Notes under the pieces: model-generated
What the model was told of the DNA's origin: nothing
Databases searched by the model: none
The model's input: only the letters and a program-made list of their open reading frames with translations
Shown here: one piece after another, positions 29,311 through 46,764 of the stretch
Position numbering within the stretch: position 1 is the stretch's first letter
Layout of the letters: the number at the start of each line of letters is the position of its first letter
Virus record (IMG/VR): IMGVR_UViG_3300022924_000020
Location: 1-47,053 of that record
Source of the DNA: a virus
Strand: one strand, 5' to 3'
DNA: 47,053 bases
Program-made: the position numbers and the translations under genes

Positions 29311-29384
29311 GAAGCCGTCGTCTAAAGGGACTAGGACGTACGTACACAATGCGTGAGATTGAGGTTCGATCCCTCACCGCTTTA
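29311..29384 (+). tRNA. tRNA-like element, possible anticodon ACA
   Basis: 74 nt. Acceptor GAAGCCG/CCGCTTT has one C-C mismatch, the D stem is GTCT/GGAC with a GG loop, and the T arm is TGAGG-TTCGATC-CCTCA. The anticodon arm can be set as TACGT-ACACAAT-GCGTG or with a C-A-closed GTACACA loop. Both read ACA, which would be an unusual Cys decoder with A34. Specificity is uncertain. Confidence 0.5.
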
Positions 29385-29410
29385 CACAAAACCTTGCCAA
29401 TGGTTGAAGT

Positions 29411-40214: not shown

Positions 40215-40258
40215 GGGTAGGTGGATAACCTCGGAGGGTTCGACTCCCCCGCTACCCA
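40215..40258 (+). tRNA. Mini tRNA-like element (acceptor and T arm only)
   Basis: 44 nt. GGGTAG pairs with CTACCC, the T arm is GAGGG-TTCGACT-CCCCC, and the linker GTGGATAACCTC is too short for D and anticodon arms. It may be a decayed tRNA or a processing signal recognised by tRNA enzymes. Confidence 0.4.
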
Positions 40259-40394: not shown

Positions 40395-40785
40395 GGGGCC
40401 GCCCGGATTTGACAGGGTAGACAAGGTATAACGTGCATGCAGGGAAAGTCTATCACCCCTTAAAGTAGGACAAACAATAATTGCAAACACAACTGTTAAT
40501 GGTGGTACCGTTCTAGGAACGCTTACTATCGAGGATGTATTGGCCGGAGCTCTTGCTCCAACTCAGGAACTAGAGTTAGTATAGTTCAACCAGACGTAGC
40601 AAGCTGCGATAAGCTTTAACCAATTATGCTGGCTGTAAGCTAAGGTTAGAGATCTCAAGAGTTTTAGAAACTCCCCAGCGTAAGCTCATGGGTTAACGAG
40701 TGGTGAGGGTGCAACACCTCAAAGAAGCATGTAGACCGTTATGGTTTGATACAACTGGACAAGGGTTCGACTCCCTTCGGCTCCA
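40395..40785 (+). ncRNA. ssrA: tmRNA (ssrA)
   Basis: 391 nt. The ends form a tRNA-like acceptor (GGGGCCG with CGGCTCC, one G-T) with a GGGTTCGACTCCC T arm, and the 5' part has the conserved GGATTTGACA block. The tag frame begins at GCA 40483 and continues 33 codons to TAG 40582. It starts ANTTVNGG and ends PTQELELV, longer than host tags and lacking the usual ALAA. Phage tmRNAs with long tags and hydrophobic non-ALAA ends have been described in other phages. It should rescue stalled ribosomes and add this tag. Confidence 0.88.
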
Positions 40786-40827
40786 CAACCTCTGGATAGA
40801 GGTTAATCTTACACAACAACAAAGCCT

Positions 40828-40865
40828 AGAGCCCGGGGATAACATCACTCCGGGCTCTTTGTATT
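40828..40865 (+). terminator. Terminator after the tmRNA
   Basis: A perfect 9 bp stem AGAGCCCGG/CCGGGCTCT around a 13 nt loop is followed by TTGTATTT. Confidence 0.85.
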
Positions 40866-40915: not shown

Positions 40916-42385
40916 ATGTCATCACAATCAGGCAAAATGCAAGACACAGTAAACACTTTTATGCACGAGATCGTGTCCGATGAACTAAGTGAAGTACTAA
41001 TGCAAACTGGTCTTAAAATTGACAAAGGAGACACAACTGGTACTAAGTTCGTAACAACTGGTCTTCACCAAGTGTTGGTACCGGCTGCAATGAGCAAAGT
41101 ACAAGGAGCTCATAACCTATTGAAGCAGTTCAAAGAAGAAGAAACTACTCGTGTTTACAACAGAGAGTACAAGAACATCTTCGTGAATGACTTCATCGTT
41201 GTTATGAACCAGGTTATTACTAAGTACTTTGGTTTGATTCACGTATCCCGTGTTGATACTACCTTACGCCCAGCCGGAAACGATTACATTCAGATCCCAA
41301 CAGGATATGACAACAATGGTAACCTGGAACATGCTAAAGGGTATGTAGGTTCTGTTCTTGCTCCGGTATGGGAAGATGCTATCATCGACATCAGAGCTAG
41401 CGGATCAATCGCAGTACTGGCCAAATTGAAGTACGAAGGACAGGTTAACGATTTCTTAGCTGATATCGAGAAGCTGTGTAAATCAACTTCAGTTGTTAAA
41501 GGTCAGTCGGTAACAGTACAGTCTGTATACGGTGGTATGCTTGCAACTCCTATCTCTCCAAAAGAGAACAAGAAGATCATCTTGAGCGATCAGAATGAGC
41601 GTATCATCGGTAACCTTATCATCCCATCATTAGCTGATCAGAGCAAAACAAGCTTGCTGTTCACTGGTGACTTTGGAACTGGTAAGACTGAGACAGCTAT
41701 CCGCGTAGGTATTGCTGGTCAGAAGAAATACAAACGTACGTTCTTCTATCTACACAACGCAGAACTATTCGCTCAGTTGATCCCGTACTTGAAGAACTAT
41801 CAGGGTTCTATTGTGTTTGTAGAGGACGTTGATCAGTTAACAGCTGGTGATCGTGACACGAACATGAACAACTTGTTAAACCAGTTAGATGGTAACGAGC
41901 TGAAAAACGTTAACTGTACTTTCATCTTCACGACCAACAACCACGAAAAGATCCACCCTGCAATGAGAAGACCAGGTCGTATCGATCAGGTAGTTCATTT
42001 TGACTACTGTGATGTTCCTACTATTGCTAAGATTTTCGAATTGTATGCAGAAGGATTCAAAGGAGCAGAAACAGTTGACTTCATGGCTGCTGCAGAGAAA
42101 GTACCAGAGAAACTTCAAGGTGCTGTGGTAGCAGAGATCGCCAGACGTGCTCAGAAATACGCAACCAAATTACACGATGGGGTTATCTCTACTGATGTAT
42201 TCATGGATGCAGTAGCTTCTATGGACAGCCACATCAAGTTCATGCGTGCAGATCAGAAGAAAGATCTTACTGCTGAAGCATTGTTGGCTCAGGTTGCTAC
42301 AATCGTTGACAAACGTGCGTACCCAGGCAACTTTGCTAACCCGGAAGTACCTAAATCAGAGGGTACTTACGCAGCATTGATCTAG
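40916..42385 (+). CDS. AAA+ ATPase, FtsH/Cdc48-like module
   Basis: 489 aa from ATG 40916 (MSSQSGKMQDTV); the longer upstream frame lies in tmRNA and terminator. Walker A is GDFGTGKT (251-258), Walker B VFVEDVDQL (about 300-308), sensor 1 TFIFTTNN, and the second region of homology AMRRPGRIDQVV carries the arginine finger. No HExxH protease site or second ATPase follows. N-terminal residues 1-230 are a separate domain, maybe for substrate. It should remodel or unfold proteins as a ring. Placement directly after tmRNA hints at work on tagged chains (inference). Confidence 0.85.
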   Translation: MSSQSGKMQDTVNTFMHEIVSDELSEVLMQTGLKIDKGDTTGTKFVTTGLHQVLVPAAMSKVQGAHNLLKQFKEEETTRVYNREYKNIFVNDFIVVMNQVITKYFGLIHVSRVDTTLRPAGNDYIQIPTGYDNNGNLEHAKGYVGSVLAPVWEDAIIDIRASGSIAVLAKLKYEGQVNDFLADIEKLCKSTSVVKGQSVTVQSVYGGMLATPISPKENKKIILSDQNERIIGNLIIPSLADQSKTSLLFTGDFGTGKTETAIRVGIAGQKKYKRTFFYLHNAELFAQLIPYLKNYQGSIVFVEDVDQLTAGDRDTNMNNLLNQLDGNELKNVNCTFIFTTNNHEKIHPAMRRPGRIDQVVHFDYCDVPTIAKIFELYAEGFKGAETVDFMAAAEKVPEKLQGAVVAEIARRAQKYATKLHDGVISTDVFMDAVASMDSHIKFMRADQKKDLTAEALLAQVATIVDKRAYPGNFANPEVPKSEGTYAALI

Positions 42386-42713: not shown

Positions 42714-42787
42714 TGCGATGTAGAGGAGAGGCCGTCCTCAGGAGTCTCATAAACTTCAGATCACCAGTTCGAATCTGGTCATCGCTA
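42714..42787 (+). tRNA. tRNA-Met (CAT)
   Basis: Anticodon stem GGAGT-CTCATAA-ACTTC and T arm ACCAG-TTCGAAT-CTGGT. The acceptor TGCGATG/CATCGCT has a U1-U72 mismatch, as in initiators, but the anticodon stem lacks the three G-C pairs of an initiator. It could be Met or an Ile (k2C-type) tRNA. First in the array. Confidence 0.85.
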
Positions 42788-42803
42788 CCTAAGATACAAA
42801 ACT

Positions 42804-42902
42804 ATGAAAAGAGAACAGTATATACTCATCCCGTCGAATCAAGCCTTCTTAGGCAGTGATAAGACACGTGTGCATGTATGTACCGGGCTTGGAGTATCAT
42901 AG
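42804..42902 (+). CDS. Possible small gene between tRNAs
   Basis: 32 aa from ATG 42804 (MKREQYILIPSNQAFL), ending just before a clear terminator. The A-rich start context AAGATACAAAACT is normal for this phage. Too short for a firm call; could be a leader peptide. Confidence 0.35.
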   Translation: MKREQYILIPSNQAFLGSDKTRVHVCTGLGVS

Positions 42903-42923
42903 AGAGATTATCTAATAGTACTT

Positions 42924-42957
42924 AAAACCCGGTTCCTTCAACAGAATCGGGTTTTTT
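42924..42957 (+). terminator. Strong intrinsic terminator within the array
   Basis: CCCGGTTC and GAATCGGG (one G-T pair) form a stem after AAAA and before TTTTTT. It separates tRNA-Met and the small gene from the rest of the array. Confidence 0.85.
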
Positions 42958-42962
42958 GATTT

Positions 42963-43036
42963 GGAGCCGCAGCATATTGGCGCATGGCGCCTCGTTGTCA
43001 GCGAGGAGATTACGGGTTCAATTCCCGTCGGTTCCG
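42963..43036 (+). tRNA. tRNA-Asp (GTC)
   Basis: Acceptor GGAGCCG/CGGTTCC, anticodon stem CCTCG-TTGTCAG-CGAGG and T arm ACGGG-TTCAATT-CCCGT. Clear class I tRNA with a short D stem. Confidence 0.9.
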
Positions 43037-43112
43037 CTAGGGTTACTACTAAACTTGTAATAGGAAGTAGCGTTGAGCAGGCCACGACTGCCGATATTAA
43101 GGCGTGGTGCAG
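43037..43112 (+). other. Array spacer with a bulged hairpin
   Basis: 76 nt between tRNAs with CCAC/GTGG and GCC/GGC pairing around GATATTAA. No gene or tRNA. Confidence 0.35.
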
Positions 43113-43184
43113 GCGAGATAAGCATAAGTGGTAATGTACCGGGCTTCCACCCCGGGGAACACGGTTCGACTCCGTGATTTCGCT
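43113..43184 (+). tRNA. tRNA-Gly (TCC)
   Basis: Acceptor GCGAGAT/ATTTCGC, anticodon stem CCGGG-CTTCCAC-CCCGG and T arm CACGG-TTCGACT-CCGTG. Discriminator T, as common for Gly. Confidence 0.9.
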
Positions 43185-43328
43185 CAAACAGTACTGTTGA
43201 AGTACTGTAGAATGTTCGTTGACATCTTGGTATTAAAAGATTACGTTGCAGGAAACAAGGTCTTTGGGACAGACGAGTAAGTCTCTGTATAACTCAATGT
43301 AAAGGCGACCTGAGTTCGCGACGTAAAT
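43185..43328 (+). other. Array spacer with several hairpins
   Basis: 144 nt without a gene. CAGTACT/AGTACTG (43189-43207), ACAGAC/GTCTCTGT (about 43269-43288) and AACTCA/TGAGTT (43291-43316) each form stems. TGTAAA lies at 43298 in the last loop. Confidence 0.4.
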
Positions 43329-43431
43329 GGGGGAATTCCGGGCATGACGATCCCGGGGCTCCGCGCATCAGGCTAGATCTGGTGCAGGGAGCTAGCGAAA
43401 GCTTGTGGTGGTTTGAATCCACTGTCCCCCA
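43329..43431 (+). tRNA. Giant tRNA-like element with long anticodon arm
   Basis: 103 nt. Acceptor GGGGGAA/GTCCCCC, D-like stem CCGGG/CCCGG without GG in its loop, then GCTCC/GGAGC stacked on GCATCAG-GCTAGAT-CTGGTGC, a small AGC-GAAA-GCT hairpin in the variable position and a T arm (GGTGG-TTTGAAT-CCACT) with U at position 56. The apical loop centre is TAG or CTA, depending on the frame. A cloverleaf by topology, but not a normal tRNA. Confidence 0.5.
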
Positions 43432-43435
43432 CTAT

Positions 43436-43505
43436 GGGCCGTATTTCGATGGCAGAGCGCTTCTTTTGCAAGGAAGATGAGAGGGTTCGAATCCCTACGT
43501 GTCCA
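43436..43505 (+). tRNA. tRNA-Ala (TGC)
   Basis: 70 nt. Acceptor starts GGG with a G3-U70 pair, the alanine identity signal, but contains a bulge further in. Anticodon arm CTTCT-TTTGCAA-GGAAG is clear, the D arm is reduced, and the T arm has AGGG-TTCGAAT-CCCT. A compact tRNA-Ala. Confidence 0.8.
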
Positions 43506-43506
43506 C

Positions 43507-43743
43507 ATGAACACAATAACAACAAACGACATCAAGAAAGCTCTGTTTGTACAGAAGCCAATCACTATCTTCTCTTATGCAGACAAAGAAGGTCTTCATT
43601 ATACCACAGCTAAACCAGTCCTATTCGGTACTGAGTTGCTTATGGTACTATTTAAGATCCCTTATGCAGAGGTAGAAGCTAAGTTTGACTCAACTATGCC
43701 ATCAACACTGATGACTAAATGGGCTTATCTTGAACAACAGTAA
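43507..43743 (+). CDS. Small unknown protein within the tRNA array
   Basis: 78 aa from ATG 43507 (MNTITTNDIKKALFVQ), which begins 1 nt after tRNA-Ala; the longer frame would start inside that tRNA. Mixed alpha/beta (TIFSYADKEGLHYTTAKPV, LLMVLFKIPYAEVEAKF). It lies on the tRNA transcript, so it would be freed by tRNA processing. No membrane segment; function unknown. Confidence 0.55.
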   Translation: MNTITTNDIKKALFVQKPITIFSYADKEGLHYTTAKPVLFGTELLMVLFKIPYAEVEAKFDSTMPSTLMTKWAYLEQQ

Positions 43744-43748
43744 CATCA

Positions 43749-43820
43749 TGAAGCATGGTGTAACTGGAAGCATTTGACACTTTGAATGTCAAGGCGCCGG
43801 CTCGACTCCGGCTGCTTCAT
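43749..43820 (+). tRNA. tRNA-Gln (TTG)
   Basis: Acceptor TGAAGCA/TGCTTCA, anticodon arm TGACA-CTTTGAA-TGTCA and T arm GCCGG-CTCGACT-CCGGC with C at position 54. Clear. Confidence 0.88.
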
Positions 43821-43824
43821 CTAA

Positions 43825-43896
43825 TGGGGAGTAGTATAATTGGCAGTGCCTCGCCCTCTGACGGCGATAGTCTTGGTTCGATCCCAAGCACCCCAT
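43825..43896 (+). tRNA. tRNA-Gln (CTG)
   Basis: Acceptor TGGGG-type with one internal A-A mismatch (TGGGGAG/CACCCCA), anticodon arm TCGCC-CTCTGAC-GGCGA and T arm CTTGG-TTCGATC-CCAAG. Starts 4 nt after the TTG tRNA. Confidence 0.88.
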
Positions 43897-43979
43897 CCAC
43901 AGCTGAGCTGTAAACGACTGACGTCACGTTATAACGTCACTAAGTAGCCATGCGAGAACCACACTCCGGGCTACTATTT
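43897..43979 (+). other. Array spacer with 7 bp hairpin and TGTAAA motif
   Basis: TGTAAA at 43909, an ACGTTATAACGT palindrome at about 43927 and a perfect AGTAGCC/GGCTACT stem (43943-43975) that ends 4 nt before tRNA-Arg. Confidence 0.4.
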
Positions 43980-44051
43980 CTCTCTTTAGTTCAATGGACA
44001 GAATGCTGGGCTACGAACCCGGTGATATACGTTCGAGTCGTATAGGAGAGA
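43980..44051 (+). tRNA. tRNA-Arg (ACG)
   Basis: Acceptor CTCTCTT/AGGAGAG, anticodon arm CTGGG-CTACGAA-CCCGG and T arm ATACG-TTCGAGT-CGTAT. Clear; A34 suggests wobble inosine by a host deaminase. Confidence 0.9.
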
Positions 44052-44055
44052 CCAT

Positions 44056-44127
44056 GCCCGGTAAACATAGATGGCGATGTGCTAGTCTTGTAAACTAGAT
44101 AGTTCGGCTCGAGTCCGGAACTGGGCT
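44056..44127 (+). tRNA. tRNA-Thr (TGT)
   Basis: Acceptor GCCCGGT/ACTGGGC, D stem ACAT/ATGT, anticodon arm CTAGT-CTTGTAA-ACTAG and T arm TTCGG-CTCGAGT-CCGGA. Clear. Confidence 0.9.
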
Positions 44128-44193
44128 CTAGGAGGTATACGGGTGGGGCTGCGTTGCGAAAGCATGTAAGTCACCTACCCACTCCTCTATTAT
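44128..44193 (+). other. Array spacer with nested hairpin
   Basis: GGAG/CTCC encloses GGGT-GG/CC-TACCC pairing with TGC/GCA inside. No TTC-type T arm, so not a tRNA. Confidence 0.4.
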
Positions 44194-44265
44194 CTCTCGG
44201 TCGTTTAACGGATAGGACCTCAGACTTCTAATCTGAGTATGGGAGTTCGATTCTCTCTCGAGAGA
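44194..44265 (+). tRNA. tRNA-Arg (TCT)
   Basis: Acceptor CTCTCGG/TCGAGAG, anticodon arm TCAGA-CTTCTAA-TCTGA and T arm GGGAG-TTCGATT-CTCTC. Clear. Confidence 0.9.
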
Positions 44266-44275
44266 CACTACAATA

Positions 44276-44364
44276 GGAAGAGTGGCTGAGTTGGTTTAAG
44301 GCAACGGGTTGCTAACTCGTCGGGGCTGAGATGACTCCCCTGGGTTCGAATCCCAGTTCTTCCT
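44276..44364 (+). tRNA. tRNA-Ser (GCT)
   Basis: 89 nt class II. Acceptor GGAAGAG/TTCTTCC, anticodon arm ACGGG-TTGCTAA-CTCGT, long variable arm, and T arm CTGGG-TTCGAAT-CCCAG. Clear. Confidence 0.92.
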
Positions 44365-44366
44365 CT

Positions 44367-44443
44367 GCTGACGTATATCCTCAAGCTTATACCTTGTAGA
44401 AAGATTAATTGGTCACATGGGAGTTCAAGTCTCCTCGTCAGTA
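44367..44443 (+). tRNA. tRNA-like element, no readable anticodon arm
   Basis: 77 nt. Acceptor GCTGACG/CGTCAGT and T arm GGGAG-TTCAAGT-CTCCT are good. The middle has no GG D loop, and the anticodon arm does not fold: candidates such as ACCTTGTAGAAAG fail to pair well. Possibly a decayed tRNA or a different structure. Confidence 0.4.
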
Positions 44444-44496
44444 CTACATCGCGTAACAGCCTATTTCCCCGCGATTCACCCAATAGGGAAGGCTTT
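44444..44496 (+). other. Array spacer with alternative hairpins
   Basis: ATCGCG/CGCGAT and a bulged GCCT-TTCCC/GGGAAGGC stem overlap, so only one can form at a time. The second ends in CTTTCTTC and could terminate. Confidence 0.35.
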
Positions 44497-44567
44497 CTTC
44501 TGGTGGCGTAATGGTAGCGTAGCTGTTTTACATGCAGTTGGCGGTAGTTCGATTCTACCTCGGAAGA
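44497..44567 (+). tRNA. tRNA-Val (TAC)
   Basis: Acceptor CTTCTGG/TCGGAAG, anticodon arm GCTGT-TTTACAT-GCAGT and T arm GGTAG-TTCGATT-CTACC. D stem is weak (GC/GC). Confidence 0.8.
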
Positions 44568-44620
44568 CTGGTCGACGACTTGAGAGGATGCACGACGGTA
44601 AATAAAGTCCCCTCACTTAT
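44568..44620 (+). other. Array spacer, weak hairpin
   Basis: GAGAGG and CCCCTC can pair around GATGCACGACGGTAAAT. No gene. Confidence 0.3.
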
Positions 44621-44703
44621 GGAAGGTAGCGTCTATTGGTAGACATCCTGATTTGAAATCAGGCGCGGGGTGCAAGCTCAGGGTTCGAATCCTATACCTT
44701 CCG
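44621..44703 (+). tRNA. tRNA-Ser (TGA)
   Basis: 83 nt class II. Acceptor GGAAGGT/ACCTTCC, anticodon arm CCTGA-TTTGAAA-TCAGG and a variable arm. The T stem is imperfect beyond three pairs. Discriminator G, as for Ser. Confidence 0.88.
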
Positions 44704-44748
44704 CGAGCGCCCTGATAGATGGCCGAATGTAAATAGTCTATCACATTT
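44704..44748 (+). other. Array spacer with possible pseudoknot
   Basis: TGATAGA (44713) and TCTATCA (44737) form 7 bp, and AATG in the loop can pair with CATT downstream (44744-44747). TGTAAA is at 44728. A compact H-type pseudoknot just before tRNA-Tyr. Confidence 0.4.
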
Positions 44749-44833
44749 GCCTTAGCGTCAGAGTTGGAGAGCTTGAAGCGGTCTGTAAAACCGTTGTCGC
44801 AAGACTTACTAGGTTCGAATCCTAGATGAGGCA
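44749..44833 (+). tRNA. tRNA-Tyr (GTA)
   Basis: 85 nt class II. Acceptor GCCTTAG/ATGAGGC (last pair mismatched), anticodon arm GCGGT-CTGTAAA-ACCGT, variable arm, T arm CTAGG-TTCGAAT-CCTAG. Discriminator A. Confidence 0.88.
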
Positions 44834-44920
44834 CAATGAAGGATGACGCTACACAGAGAAAGAAAGAGAAAAAGTAGGTTAAGATGAATTGAGGTATGCA
44901 CTGTAAAAGCAATCTCACTT
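44834..44920 (+). other. Array spacer with TGTAAA motif
   Basis: Gene-free except for a 13-codon open frame that is probably chance. TGTAAA at 44902 and weak GAG/CTC pairing before tRNA-Asn. Confidence 0.3.
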
Positions 44921-45005
44921 GTTTGGGTCGCCCAAGAGGCCGAAGGGTCCGGACTGTTAATCCGGTGACGAAAGTCCATCGTAGGTTCGAATCCTACCCC
45001 AAACG
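44921..45005 (+). tRNA. Class II-shaped tRNA-Asn (GTT)
   Basis: 85 nt. Acceptor GTTTGGG/CCCAAAC, anticodon arm CCGGA-CTGTTAA-TCCGG and T arm GTAGG-TTCGAAT-CCTAC. The variable arm is long (about 15 nt with GAC-GAAA-GTC), as in Tyr/Ser/Leu tRNAs, and the D region looks like tRNA-Tyr. Asn tRNAs normally have five variable bases. Discriminator G. A chimera-like tRNA. Confidence 0.85.
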
Positions 45006-45077
45006 CTGGGAGTTATGTGTAGACAGAGGAACACTTCAGATAGGTATCCGCTAGCCAACTGTAAATGGCTGCGACAT
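45006..45077 (+). other. Array spacer with TGTAAA hairpin
   Basis: AGCCA and TGGCT close a loop containing TGTAAA (45060). Lies 13 nt before tRNA-Ile. Confidence 0.35.
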
Positions 45078-45150
45078 CGGTAGGTATCACAACTGGTAGT
45101 GAACTGCTCTGATACGGCAGGCTATGAAGGTTCAACTCCTTCCTTACCGA
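45078..45150 (+). tRNA. tRNA-Ile (GAT)
   Basis: Acceptor CGGTAGG/CTTACCG, D stem TCAC/GTGA, anticodon arm CTGCT-CTGATAC-GGCAG and T arm GAAGG-TTCAACT-CCTTC. Clear. Confidence 0.9.
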
Positions 45151-45224
45151 CAGAGGTGGAAATAAGGGGGTAATGTTCCTTCGTGTAAAATACGTGGTCT
45201 AAAATCATAGGACGCCACCCATTT
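45151..45224 (+). other. Array spacer, possibly a decayed tRNA
   Basis: GGTGG and CCACC close 60 nt that include CGT-GTAAAAT-ACG and GTCTA/TAGGAC stems. The outline resembles a tRNA but no T loop remains. TGTAAA at 45184. Confidence 0.35.
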
Positions 45225-45297
45225 GGAGCCCAAGCTAACTTGGTAGAAGCACTGGTCTGAAAAACCAGAGGATGTGGATCGAAACCACAGAGCTCCA
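45225..45297 (+). tRNA. tRNA-Phe (GAA)
   Basis: Acceptor GGAGCCC/GAGCTCC (one C-A mismatch), anticodon arm CTGGT-CTGAAAA-ACCAG and T arm TGTGG-ATCGAAA-CCACA with A at position 54. Clear. Confidence 0.85.
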
Positions 45298-45326
45298 CAG
45301 CTGCTACTAGGCAGTAACATCGAACA

Positions 45327-45686
45327 ATGAACAAAGTACTATTAACACTAATGCTCACAGTTCTCCTGATAGGATCGAGCTGTAAGAAAGTTTACAATTA
45401 CCCGGAGAAGCAACAGAGTAACGTAGGTAAACCACAAGACGTAGCACCATCAACTGGTGAGATCTCTGTATCAACACAGGCTGAGATCACAAGTAGAACT
45501 TGGATAGCTACAAAACATTACGGTTACACAGACGATCAGAAGAATGACGTTCGTCAGATCAAGTTCGTCAGTGGACAATATACAGTTACAGTAAAACGCA
45601 TGCCAGCTACACTTTTCTGGTCTCCTGACTTTAAAGAAGGAACTACGGTGAGTGGTAGTACTGTCTGGGATCTGTATCAACTGTAG
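45327..45686 (+). CDS. Predicted lipoprotein within the tRNA array
   Basis: 119 aa. The N terminus MNKVLLTLMLTVLLIGSSCKK is a Bacteroidota lipoprotein signal with lipidation at Cys19. The mature chain has Tyr/Asn/Pro, then beta-rich sequence (SRTWIATKHYGYTDDQKNDV, QYTVTVKRMPATLFW). It would be exported and anchored in the outer or inner membrane. A surface role such as superinfection exclusion or receptor masking is plausible. It sits between tRNA-Phe and tRNA-Lys. Confidence 0.65.
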   Translation: MNKVLLTLMLTVLLIGSSCKKVYNYPEKQQSNVGKPQDVAPSTGEISVSTQAEITSRTWIATKHYGYTDDQKNDVRQIKFVSGQYTVTVKRMPATLFWSPDFKEGTTVSGSTVWDLYQL

Positions 45687-45693
45687 TTCCCTT

Positions 45694-45767
45694 GCCCTCT
45701 TAGCTCAGTTGGTTAGAGTACGAGATTCTTAATCTTGGGGTCCTGAGTTCGATCCTCAGAGGGGGCA
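45694..45767 (+). tRNA. tRNA-Lys (CTT)
   Basis: Acceptor GCCCTCT/AGGGGGC, anticodon arm CGAGA-TTCTTAA-TCTTG and T arm CTGAG-TTCGATC-CTCAG. Begins 8 nt after the lipoprotein stop. Clear. Confidence 0.9.
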
Positions 45768-45852
45768 CCGATAGGCAGAGAGACGAACTGGCTTAAAGAA
45801 ACGCGTCGGTATGGGAGTACTGATCAGACCATCCCTGAGGTTAGATCATCTT
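45768..45852 (+). other. Array spacer with hairpins
   Basis: ACCGA/TCGGT and ATGG/CCAT pairings; no gene. Ends at an 11 bp inverted repeat. Confidence 0.35.
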
Positions 45853-45949
45853 TATTCTCCGGATAGGCCGTACATGGCAAACTCAAAGTCCCTGTAACAG
45901 CAGGATTACTAGAGGACGGTTCGAGTCCGAGGTGGATTTCCGGAGAATA
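45853..45949 (+). tRNA. Large tRNA-like stem-loop with 11 bp closing helix
   Basis: TATTCTCCGGA and TCCGGAGAATA form an 11 bp perfect stem closing 97 nt that include GGAC-GGTTCGA-GTCC or a GACGG-TTCGAGT-CCGAG T-like arm, CCTG-CAGG, and GCC-GGC stems. It does not fit a canonical cloverleaf: the 3' acceptor and T arm are separated by extra bases. Decayed or novel structure. Confidence 0.4.
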
Positions 45950-45952
45950 CCG

Positions 45953-46025
45953 GCCCTTGTAGCAGACCGGTTGTAGGCAACAGGTTTTTACCCTGTGAGG
46001 CGTGGTTCGACTCCACGCGGGGGCA
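45953..46025 (+). tRNA. tRNA-Lys (TTT)
   Basis: Acceptor GCCCTTG/CGGGGGC, anticodon arm ACAGG-TTTTTAC-CCTGT and T arm CGTGG-TTCGACT-CCACG. D stem weak. Clear overall. Confidence 0.85.
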
Positions 46026-46029
46026 CAAT

Positions 46030-46102
46030 GTGGAGATGTCCGAGCGGCGTTAGGTGATGCTCTGCAACAGCATTTACATGGGTTCAAGTCCCATTCTCCA
46101 CT
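46030..46102 (+). tRNA. tRNA-Cys (GCA)
   Basis: Acceptor GTGGAGA/TCTCCAC, anticodon arm ATGCT-CTGCAAC-AGCAT and T arm ATGGG-TTCAAGT-CCCAT. Discriminator T, as in Cys tRNAs. Confidence 0.9.
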
Positions 46103-46108
46103 CTATTT

Positions 46109-46184
46109 CGGGCAGTATAGGAGTCTGGTTTATCTAACCTCACTTGGACTGAGGAGCACGCAGGTTCGAATCCTGCCTGCCCGA
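46109..46184 (+). tRNA. tRNA-Pro (TGG)
   Basis: Acceptor CGGGCAG/CTGCCCG, anticodon arm CCTCA-CTTGGAC-TGAGG and T arm GCAGG-TTCGAAT-CCTGC. Clear. Confidence 0.9.
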
Positions 46185-46247
46185 CTAACTATTGAGTTGT
46201 GAAAGTCGTAAGACATATAATCAGCTAAAGGGAGTTCACTGCAATAC
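46185..46247 (+). other. Array spacer with GTC-GTAA-GAC hairpin
   Basis: TATTG/CAATA closes a stretch containing a GTC-GTAA-GAC tetraloop hairpin. No gene. Confidence 0.35.
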
Positions 46248-46321
46248 TGGGATATAGCTTAATTGGCTAAAGCACCCACTGACGGCAGGGGAGGATATAG
46301 GTTCAAGTCCTTTTATCCCAG
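46248..46321 (+). tRNA. tRNA-like, possibly Val (GAC)
   Basis: Acceptor TGGGATA/TATCCCA, D stem GCTT/AAGC, T arm ATAGG-TTCAAGT-CCTTT (one mismatch). The anticodon stem pairs badly: CCC/GGG can pair only with extra mismatches around CTGACGG, whose centre reads GAC. Specificity uncertain. Confidence 0.5.
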
Positions 46322-46329
46322 CTAAAACG

Positions 46330-46347
46330 AGGCGTCGGTTTACGCCT
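46330..46347 (+). repeat. Perfect hairpin AGGCGT/ACGCCT
   Basis: Six pairs around CGGTTT in the spacer before tRNA-His. The following CCTTTAG is weakly T-rich, so termination is doubtful. Confidence 0.5.
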
Positions 46348-46375
46348 ACCTTTAGTACTCAATAGTTTTTAAATG

Positions 46376-46447
46376 CTGCTGTTGTCCGTAATGTAACGGA
46401 GCGGGACTGTGAATCTCGTTATGTGAGTTCAAGTCTCATACAGTAGC
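46376..46447 (+). tRNA. tRNA-His (GTG)
   Basis: Acceptor CTGCTGT/ACAGTAG, anticodon arm CGGGA-CTGTGAA-TCTCG and T arm GTGAG-TTCAAGT-CTCAT. Discriminator C with a G just upstream (46375) gives the G-1:C73 pair that marks His tRNAs. The D loop (TAATGTAA) lacks the usual GG. Confidence 0.88.
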
Positions 46448-46449
46448 CT

Positions 46450-46585
46450 AGTACTACATAAAGCTATAGATAGAAGCCCGATGTCGCATTCTATAGCACC
46501 TGTAGTACTCTTCCTGCTTGATAGTTTATAGCTACCTATGCTAAAAGGCTTGATAGATATCCCTTAGGTAAGGACAGGAAGTACT
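46450..46585 (+). other. Two mutually exclusive long hairpins
   Basis: AGTACTACA (46450) pairs with TGTAGTACT (46501) over 9 bp, continued by GCTATAGA/TCTATAGC. The same AGTACT (46504-46509) can instead extend TTCCTG to pair with CAGGAAGTACT at 46575. The two long stems cannot form together, a switch-like layout. No gene lies in it. Confidence 0.55.
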
Positions 46586-46586
46586 T

Positions 46587-46662
46587 CCCTCGCTGGTCAA
46601 ATTGGTAAAGGCGCCTGACTTAGAATCAGGAGATTGTCCGGGTTCGACCCCCGGGTGAGGGA
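46587..46662 (+). tRNA. tRNA-Leu (TAG), short variable region, CCA encoded
   Basis: Acceptor CCCTCGC/GTGAGGG, anticodon arm CCTGA-CTTAGAA-TCAGG and T arm CCGGG-TTCGACC-CCCGG. The variable region is only about 7 nt, whereas Leu tRNAs are class II. CCA (46663-46665) is encoded. Confidence 0.85.
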
Positions 46663-46667
46663 CCAAT

Positions 46668-46747
46668 GGCCCAGTGGTGAAACTGGCAGACACGCACGAC
46701 TTAAGCTCGTGTTCTTCGGAGTGGGAGTTCAACTCTCCCCTGGGCTA
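46668..46747 (+). tRNA. tRNA-Leu (TAA), CCA encoded
   Basis: Acceptor GGCCCAG/CTGGGCT, anticodon arm CACGA-CTTAAGC-TCGTG, variable arm with TTCTTCGGAGT, T arm GGGAG-TTCAACT-CTCCC, discriminator A and encoded CCA (46748-46750). Starts 2 nt after the CCA of the preceding tRNA. Confidence 0.9.
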
Positions 46748-46764
46748 CCACTAATAATACCAAG

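Follow-up and report, generated by a model that had tools for sequence, protein, structure and literature searches.

The window, by which we mean the whole stretch of DNA analyzed here, is a linear, partial IMG/VR virus record of 47,053 bases with crAss-like head genes (major capsid, portal and large terminase), and the match of its major capsid protein to the Pfam Crass_capsid family (E 3.5e-59) bears out the earlier description of the phage as crAss-like. A covariance-model search with Rfam RF00023 places a one-piece tmRNA gene on the plus strand at 40395–40788, with a score of 106.7 bits (E 7.6e-41) against a gathering score of 47 bits and an alignment spanning model positions 1–374 of 374; it is the sole match above the gathering score in the entire record, and it substantiates the tmRNA that had been called from the sequence. 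The layout is co-linear with the model and is not that of a permuted two-piece tmRNA, in which the acceptor piece precedes the coding piece. ARAGORN, run on the window, made no tmRNA call at these positions. The 5′ strand of the acceptor stem, GGGGCCG (40395–40401, plus strand), pairs with CGGCTCC (40778–40784), with G3 (40397) opposite U (40782) in the G3:U70 alanine identity pair, as flagged by script and read from the sequence; the last acceptor base, 40784, is followed by the discriminator A at 40785 and then by CAA. Also on the plus strand lie the D-loop block of the tRNA-like domain, GGATTTGACA (40405–40414; sequence and Rfam alignment), the conserved tmRNA core AAGCATGTAGACC (40725–40737; Rfam alignment) and the T arm (AAGGG, loop TTCGACT, CCCTT; 40761–40777), which together with the acceptor 3′ strand covers 40761–40784 by sequence and Rfam alignment. 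The acceptor, T arm and sequence block cited in the original prediction are thus all found in the window.

A pairing compatible with PK1 was found by script at 40441–40471 (plus strand), where AGGG (40441–40444) faces CCCT (40457–40460) and GTCT (40448–40451) faces GGAC (40468–40471), and it stops 11 nt 5′ of the resume codon. Shuffled sequences equal it in 53 of 300 cases, so that it is weak by itself; it gains support from the stronger PK1-type pairings, of like layout and spacing, in the related viruses G042 (8 of 300 shuffles) and G060 (2 of 300). The whole-fold stability of the window tmRNA is not above that of shuffles (z −0.96) and is uninformative.

Downstream of the gene, a 9-bp inverted repeat, AGAGCCCGG / CCGGGCTCT, followed by TTTGT (40828–40858, plus strand) looks terminator-like by eye; it is missing from the listing of our repeat scan, whose limits its 13-nt loop exceeds. 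Beyond this repeat lies a plus-strand AAA+ ATPase gene (40916–42385; Pfam AAA E 1.8e-14, phrog_10440). We considered this gene as a dedicated partner of the tmRNA and rejected it, given the terminator-like repeat between the two and the absence of an AAA+ gene among the neighbors examined around the relatives' tmRNAs; a homolog was likewise not found in 41 related records, in a search run without a positive control. No smpB gene was found in the window, nor in 15 of the 16 virus records searched. Upstream by 137 nt, at 40215–40258 (plus strand), sits a mini tRNA-like element, GGGTAGGTGGATAACCTCGGAGGGTTCGACTCCCCCGCTACCCAC, with acceptor pairs and a T arm and without a D arm, an anticodon arm or G3:U70; it is preceded by the hairpin TTAGCTTTGCTAA and is possibly a tRNA remnant or a molecule resembling a tRNA-like domain (TLD). 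ARAGORN further reports a dense cluster of 21 tRNA genes at 42714–46750 (plus strand), one of which (46248–46322) has an undefined anticodon loop (gacg), as well as a tRNA-Cys with the anticodon ACA, which is unusual for that identity, at 29311–29385 (plus strand), where there is no Rfam tRNA match.

Within the tmRNA gene, the tag reading frame opens at GCA 40483 and runs for 33 codons to the stop TAG at 40582–40584 (40483–40584, plus strand), encoding ANTTVNGGTVLGTLTIEDVLAGALAPTQELELV with the C terminus ELELV. The sequence therefore reads as first described, with a hydrophobic, non-ALAA end in LELV. The resume codon lies 89 nt from the RNA 5′ end, compared with 80–95 nt in 11 other tmRNAs, and the stretch upstream of it, AACAATAATT (40473–40482, plus strand), carries an A at −4 (40479) and a U at −5; the equivalent of this −4 A, A86, is the chief determinant of the frame in Escherichia coli (PMC2481249). 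A conserved A at −4, an open frame and a stop thus follow one another as expected of a tmRNA, and the other two frames from the resume site close after 10 and 4 codons. The tag, at 33 residues and ending in LELV, is not of the short ALAA type read by ClpXP, with its LAA or closely related end. An alternative frame with a short ALAA-type tag, which would have undone the original reading, was sought in all frames of the entire window tmRNA, and AA before a stop was absent from every one of them. Since mononucleotide shuffles of the gene leave 33 codons open with a chance of about 0.14, the length of the frame is weak evidence; we dropped it as support for the tag, and the relatives must therefore decide.

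Because the known hosts of crAss-like phages are Bacteroidota, we took this phylum as that of the host; a host search by tRNA-Lys sequence gave no match. In 60 tmRNAs from 61 genomes drawn evenly across the phylum, three of whose tags were settled by eye (L491, L511 and L474, the last being DEYSYSLAA), all 60 tags have 9–10 residues and an AA end, mostly ALAA, AMAA or RLAA, so that host tags are indeed as short as had been supposed. The host molecules resemble that of the window in being one-piece members of the RF00023 family and differ from it in the tag, with 9–10 residues and ends such as ALAA, AMAA and RLAA against 33 residues and LELV.

A search with the capsid protein yielded 53 related loci in viral contigs, and RF00023 was run on the records of all of them (41, then 12), with four exonuclease relatives searched alongside the second batch. 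Four capsid relatives carry a tmRNA above the cut-off, G004 and G005 having the same one; exonuclease relatives yielded first G042 and later G060, G061, G074 and G081. Read at the resume distance matching that of the window, the tags are ANTNSVKAEELGSFTFDDALALMGVETAELV in the uncultivated virus G042 (31 residues, ending ELV), GKPELSSVGIEDILAHVEANTVEYKLAA in the uncultivated virus G074 (28 residues, ending KLAA), DNQLIANSILGGTIGNRQDAKVGFDFSAFNFNRVEAEQELELAA in G060 (44 residues), DNANKALVTSLGGVLGNRQDAVVRKMVPVMEAELAEAA in G041 (38 residues), ANNKKVARQEEGARLINLAFANAPVMYGEFAVAA in G061 (34 residues), DKRQQEGAAIIRMAFAADKAIAA in G005 (23 residues), DTRQTEGAAIIRMAFASEKAVAA in G009 (23 residues) and AKNGFKRSKRTLGSLVPVLVKSSGGVARLAA in G081 (31 residues), giving, with the window, a range of 23–44 residues. 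ARAGORN reads identical tags in G042, G005, G074 and G081 and starts those of G060 and G061 later, so that the latter two lengths depend on where the resume codon is placed. All the compared virus tags have at least 23 residues and small or hydrophobic final residues; most of the long-tag relatives end in xAA (AIAA, AVAA, AEAA, ELAA or KLAA), and the ELV end occurs only in the window and G042 among the virus tags read. The long tag of the original prediction is therefore a feature of the relatives too and its non-AA end, for the most part, is not: as far as the sequences tell, the shared trait of the virus tags is their length, not the LV end, which is not fixed in the group, since G074, with a window-like tag, ends in KLAA. 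No Crass_capsid match was found in G042, so that it may be a phage of a different type. RF00023 gave no tmRNA in many related records, including some of 89–99 kb, although such records may be incomplete, and the gene is thus sporadic. We excluded from the phage set the IMG/VR contig G058 (C1:18915–19826; L074, L329), whose tmRNA, with a 21-residue tag, GNVLDKMETLGLVRESEVTVA, lies beside smpB and is possibly of bacterial origin; the record represents either a phage with both genes or a bacterial flank.

Other routes to further members returned little. The pattern CAATAATTGCAAACNCAAC matched three contigs, with no tmRNA in any matched stretch; of two pattern scans allowing synonymous variants, one recovered G042 and a chance match in a coding gene (L517) and the other only the known G004, G005 and G009 loci. 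When the tags were run by tblastn against phage records there was no match; the test is uninformative for such short queries because it also missed the control, the tag of mycobacteriophage Tonenili, despite the presence of Tonenili in the collection.

The homologous tags allow the peptide itself to be compared. The window tag aligns with that of G042 at a score of 41 and with that of G074 at 40, each with a shuffle p of about 5e-4, and the predicted frame outscores the +1 and +2 frames in six of six homologous pairs, including G060–G041, where frame +2 nearly equals it, and the closely related G005–G009, whose DNA is alike in every frame. Summed over five pairs (window–G042, window–G074, G060–G041, G061–G005 and G005–G009), identities number 72, 80 and 58 of 114 at the first, second and third positions of the codon, respectively, the third being the least conserved. 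An excess in frame 0 together with variable third positions is the pattern expected of a peptide under selection, and the virus tags accordingly look selected as peptides. On balance we favor, with some confidence, a functional phage tmRNA that encodes in its message part a long tag under selection at the peptide level.

Were ribosome release all that mattered, any open frame with a stop would suffice and the tag and its end would be free to drift, as the viability of Helicobacter pylori with a tag shortened to two residues (PMC2584231), the very different tags of separate virus groups and the appreciable chance of 33 open codons would allow; the alignment of the window, G042 and G074 tags far above shuffles, the success of frame 0 in all homologous pairs with third positions most variable, and the uniform minimum length and small or hydrophobic ends of the compared tags make this rather unlikely. 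A molecule whose main role is to sequester host SmpB as a decoy, akin to one consisting of the tRNA-like domain only, such as that of phage DS6A, which strongly inhibits tmRNA (PMC4131195), would fit the smpB results given above; such a decoy would have no use for a conserved message frame, but the frame has been conserved and the window has its resume signals, and we hold this role to be highly improbable. Least credible of all is a decayed gene or a sequencing error in which a frameshift lengthened a short ALAA tag: nothing direct speaks for it beyond the failure of ARAGORN to call the gene, no frame has AA before its stop, so that a single indel cannot yield an ALAA-type end and we rejected such an origin, and a tag almost as long, with an ELV end, is found in the independent virus G042.

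Tags of the Mycoplasma type are likewise long, which lends some weight to the long phage tag being a degradation signal for a different protease or adaptor, by which the phage would recycle host chains and its own aborted chains. The retention of hydrophobic or AA ends is in keeping with this, as is the Mesoplasma florum tag, which is recognized by that organism's own Lon (PMC9097571). No partner protease is linked to the gene, however, since the AAA+ gene stands beyond the terminator-like repeat and none was found among the neighbors examined around the relatives' tmRNAs, and we regard such a signal as possible but tentative.

Returning to a working tmRNA with a selected tag, its family membership suggests a course of events. 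The RNA would be charged by the host alanyl-tRNA synthetase and brought by host SmpB and EF-Tu to ribosomes that have stalled on an mRNA that is broken or lacks a stop codon; the SmpB would presumably be the host's, since neither the window nor 15 of the 16 virus records searched yielded an smpB gene. Translation would restart at GCA 40483, and the released chain would carry the added Ala and 33 residues ending in LELV. The likeliest purpose would be to prevent ribosomes from being tied up during infection and, at the same time, to mark rescued chains with a tail that would be processed differently, and probably at a slower rate, by the host's ALAA-reading proteases and adaptors. Ends in AAV or ASV are degraded more slowly than LAA in E. 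coli (PMC9097571), and by analogy the LELV end probably weakens recognition by ClpXP; the proposal that the tag steers rescued chains away from ClpXP is in that light plausible. That phage tmRNA genes can matter, and can reach very high expression, is indicated by mycobacteriophage Wildcat, where no lytic gene is expressed more strongly than the tmRNA (PMC7474061).

Phage-encoded tmRNAs of several kinds provide a context for these tags. The actinophages Tonenili, Nappy and Kumao (Mycobacterium) and Forza and Gibbles (Gordonia) have, like the window, a one-piece phage tmRNA with a long tag, of 25–31 residues; those of Tonenili, Nappy and Forza have 25–28 residues and end in ALV. The Tonenili tag presumably matches that of Bxz1. 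Their hosts, in contrast, are actinobacterial, and their tags are not significantly similar to that of the window in pairwise shuffles. A motif common to Bacteroidota-phage and actinophage tags was picked post hoc, with non-significant pairwise shuffles, and we retain it as a lead only. The Streptomyces phages Tomas, Faust and Wakanda also encode a one-piece tmRNA, but with short, host-like tags such as DNSNVAFALAA. Among Crassvirales, the gut phages cr10_1, cr52_1 and cr60_1 resemble the window in having their own tmRNA with non-host-type tags, e.g. GNTSYVTDYTRLVA, but their molecules are two-piece and circularly permuted, with 14-residue tags ending in LVA, LAA or AVA. Closer in layout is Cellulophaga phage phi14:2 (Steigviridae, Crassvirales), with a one-piece tmRNA and a 38-residue reading, GNDTDNTQLKANMTVVHNILNGSDALIGSSVQKLAMVA, that differs in its AMVA end; it scores 46.0 bits with RF00023, just below the cut-off of 47, and ARAGORN calls the gene with the same tag end and a later tag start. 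In the record of this cultivated phage (NC_021806, 4031–4502, plus strand) the tmRNA is unannotated, and former ORF calls there were deleted in 2020. Elsewhere, Tunturiibacter phage Tunturi_4 (L283) has a permuted tmRNA, its tag 33 residues long with an AVAA end, that adjoins a release-factor gene with an RF-1 domain, so that two genes with a possible role in ribosome rescue lie next to each other, and Mycobacterium phage LilhomieP (L298, 1501–3087) has an unannotated tmRNA (98.4 bits) with a GOLLD RNA (216.4 bits) 0.8 kb downstream.

Long non-ALAA phage tags are hence not new as a kind, since actinophages already have them: long tags ending in ALV are known there, and the long tag of Bacteroidota phages, of which we found no description in the searchable papers, is a variant thereof. 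A broader proposition, that phages of Bacteroidota and of Actinobacteria independently made the tag into an extended peptide module under selection, with a helix-like motif in its interior (e.g. IEDVLA or IEAFFA) and Leu-Val or xAA at its end, diverting rescued chains from the host's ALAA-directed ClpXP proteolysis to another receptor or fate, strikes us as unlikely. The gap between these phage tags of 23–44 residues and host tags of 9–10 residues is clear and bears on why phages carry a tmRNA of their own; among crAss-like phages, the cultivated phi14:2, whose tmRNA lacks an annotation, could serve as a laboratory system. Together, the length gap and the signs of selection suggest that the tag peptide is in itself important to the phage.
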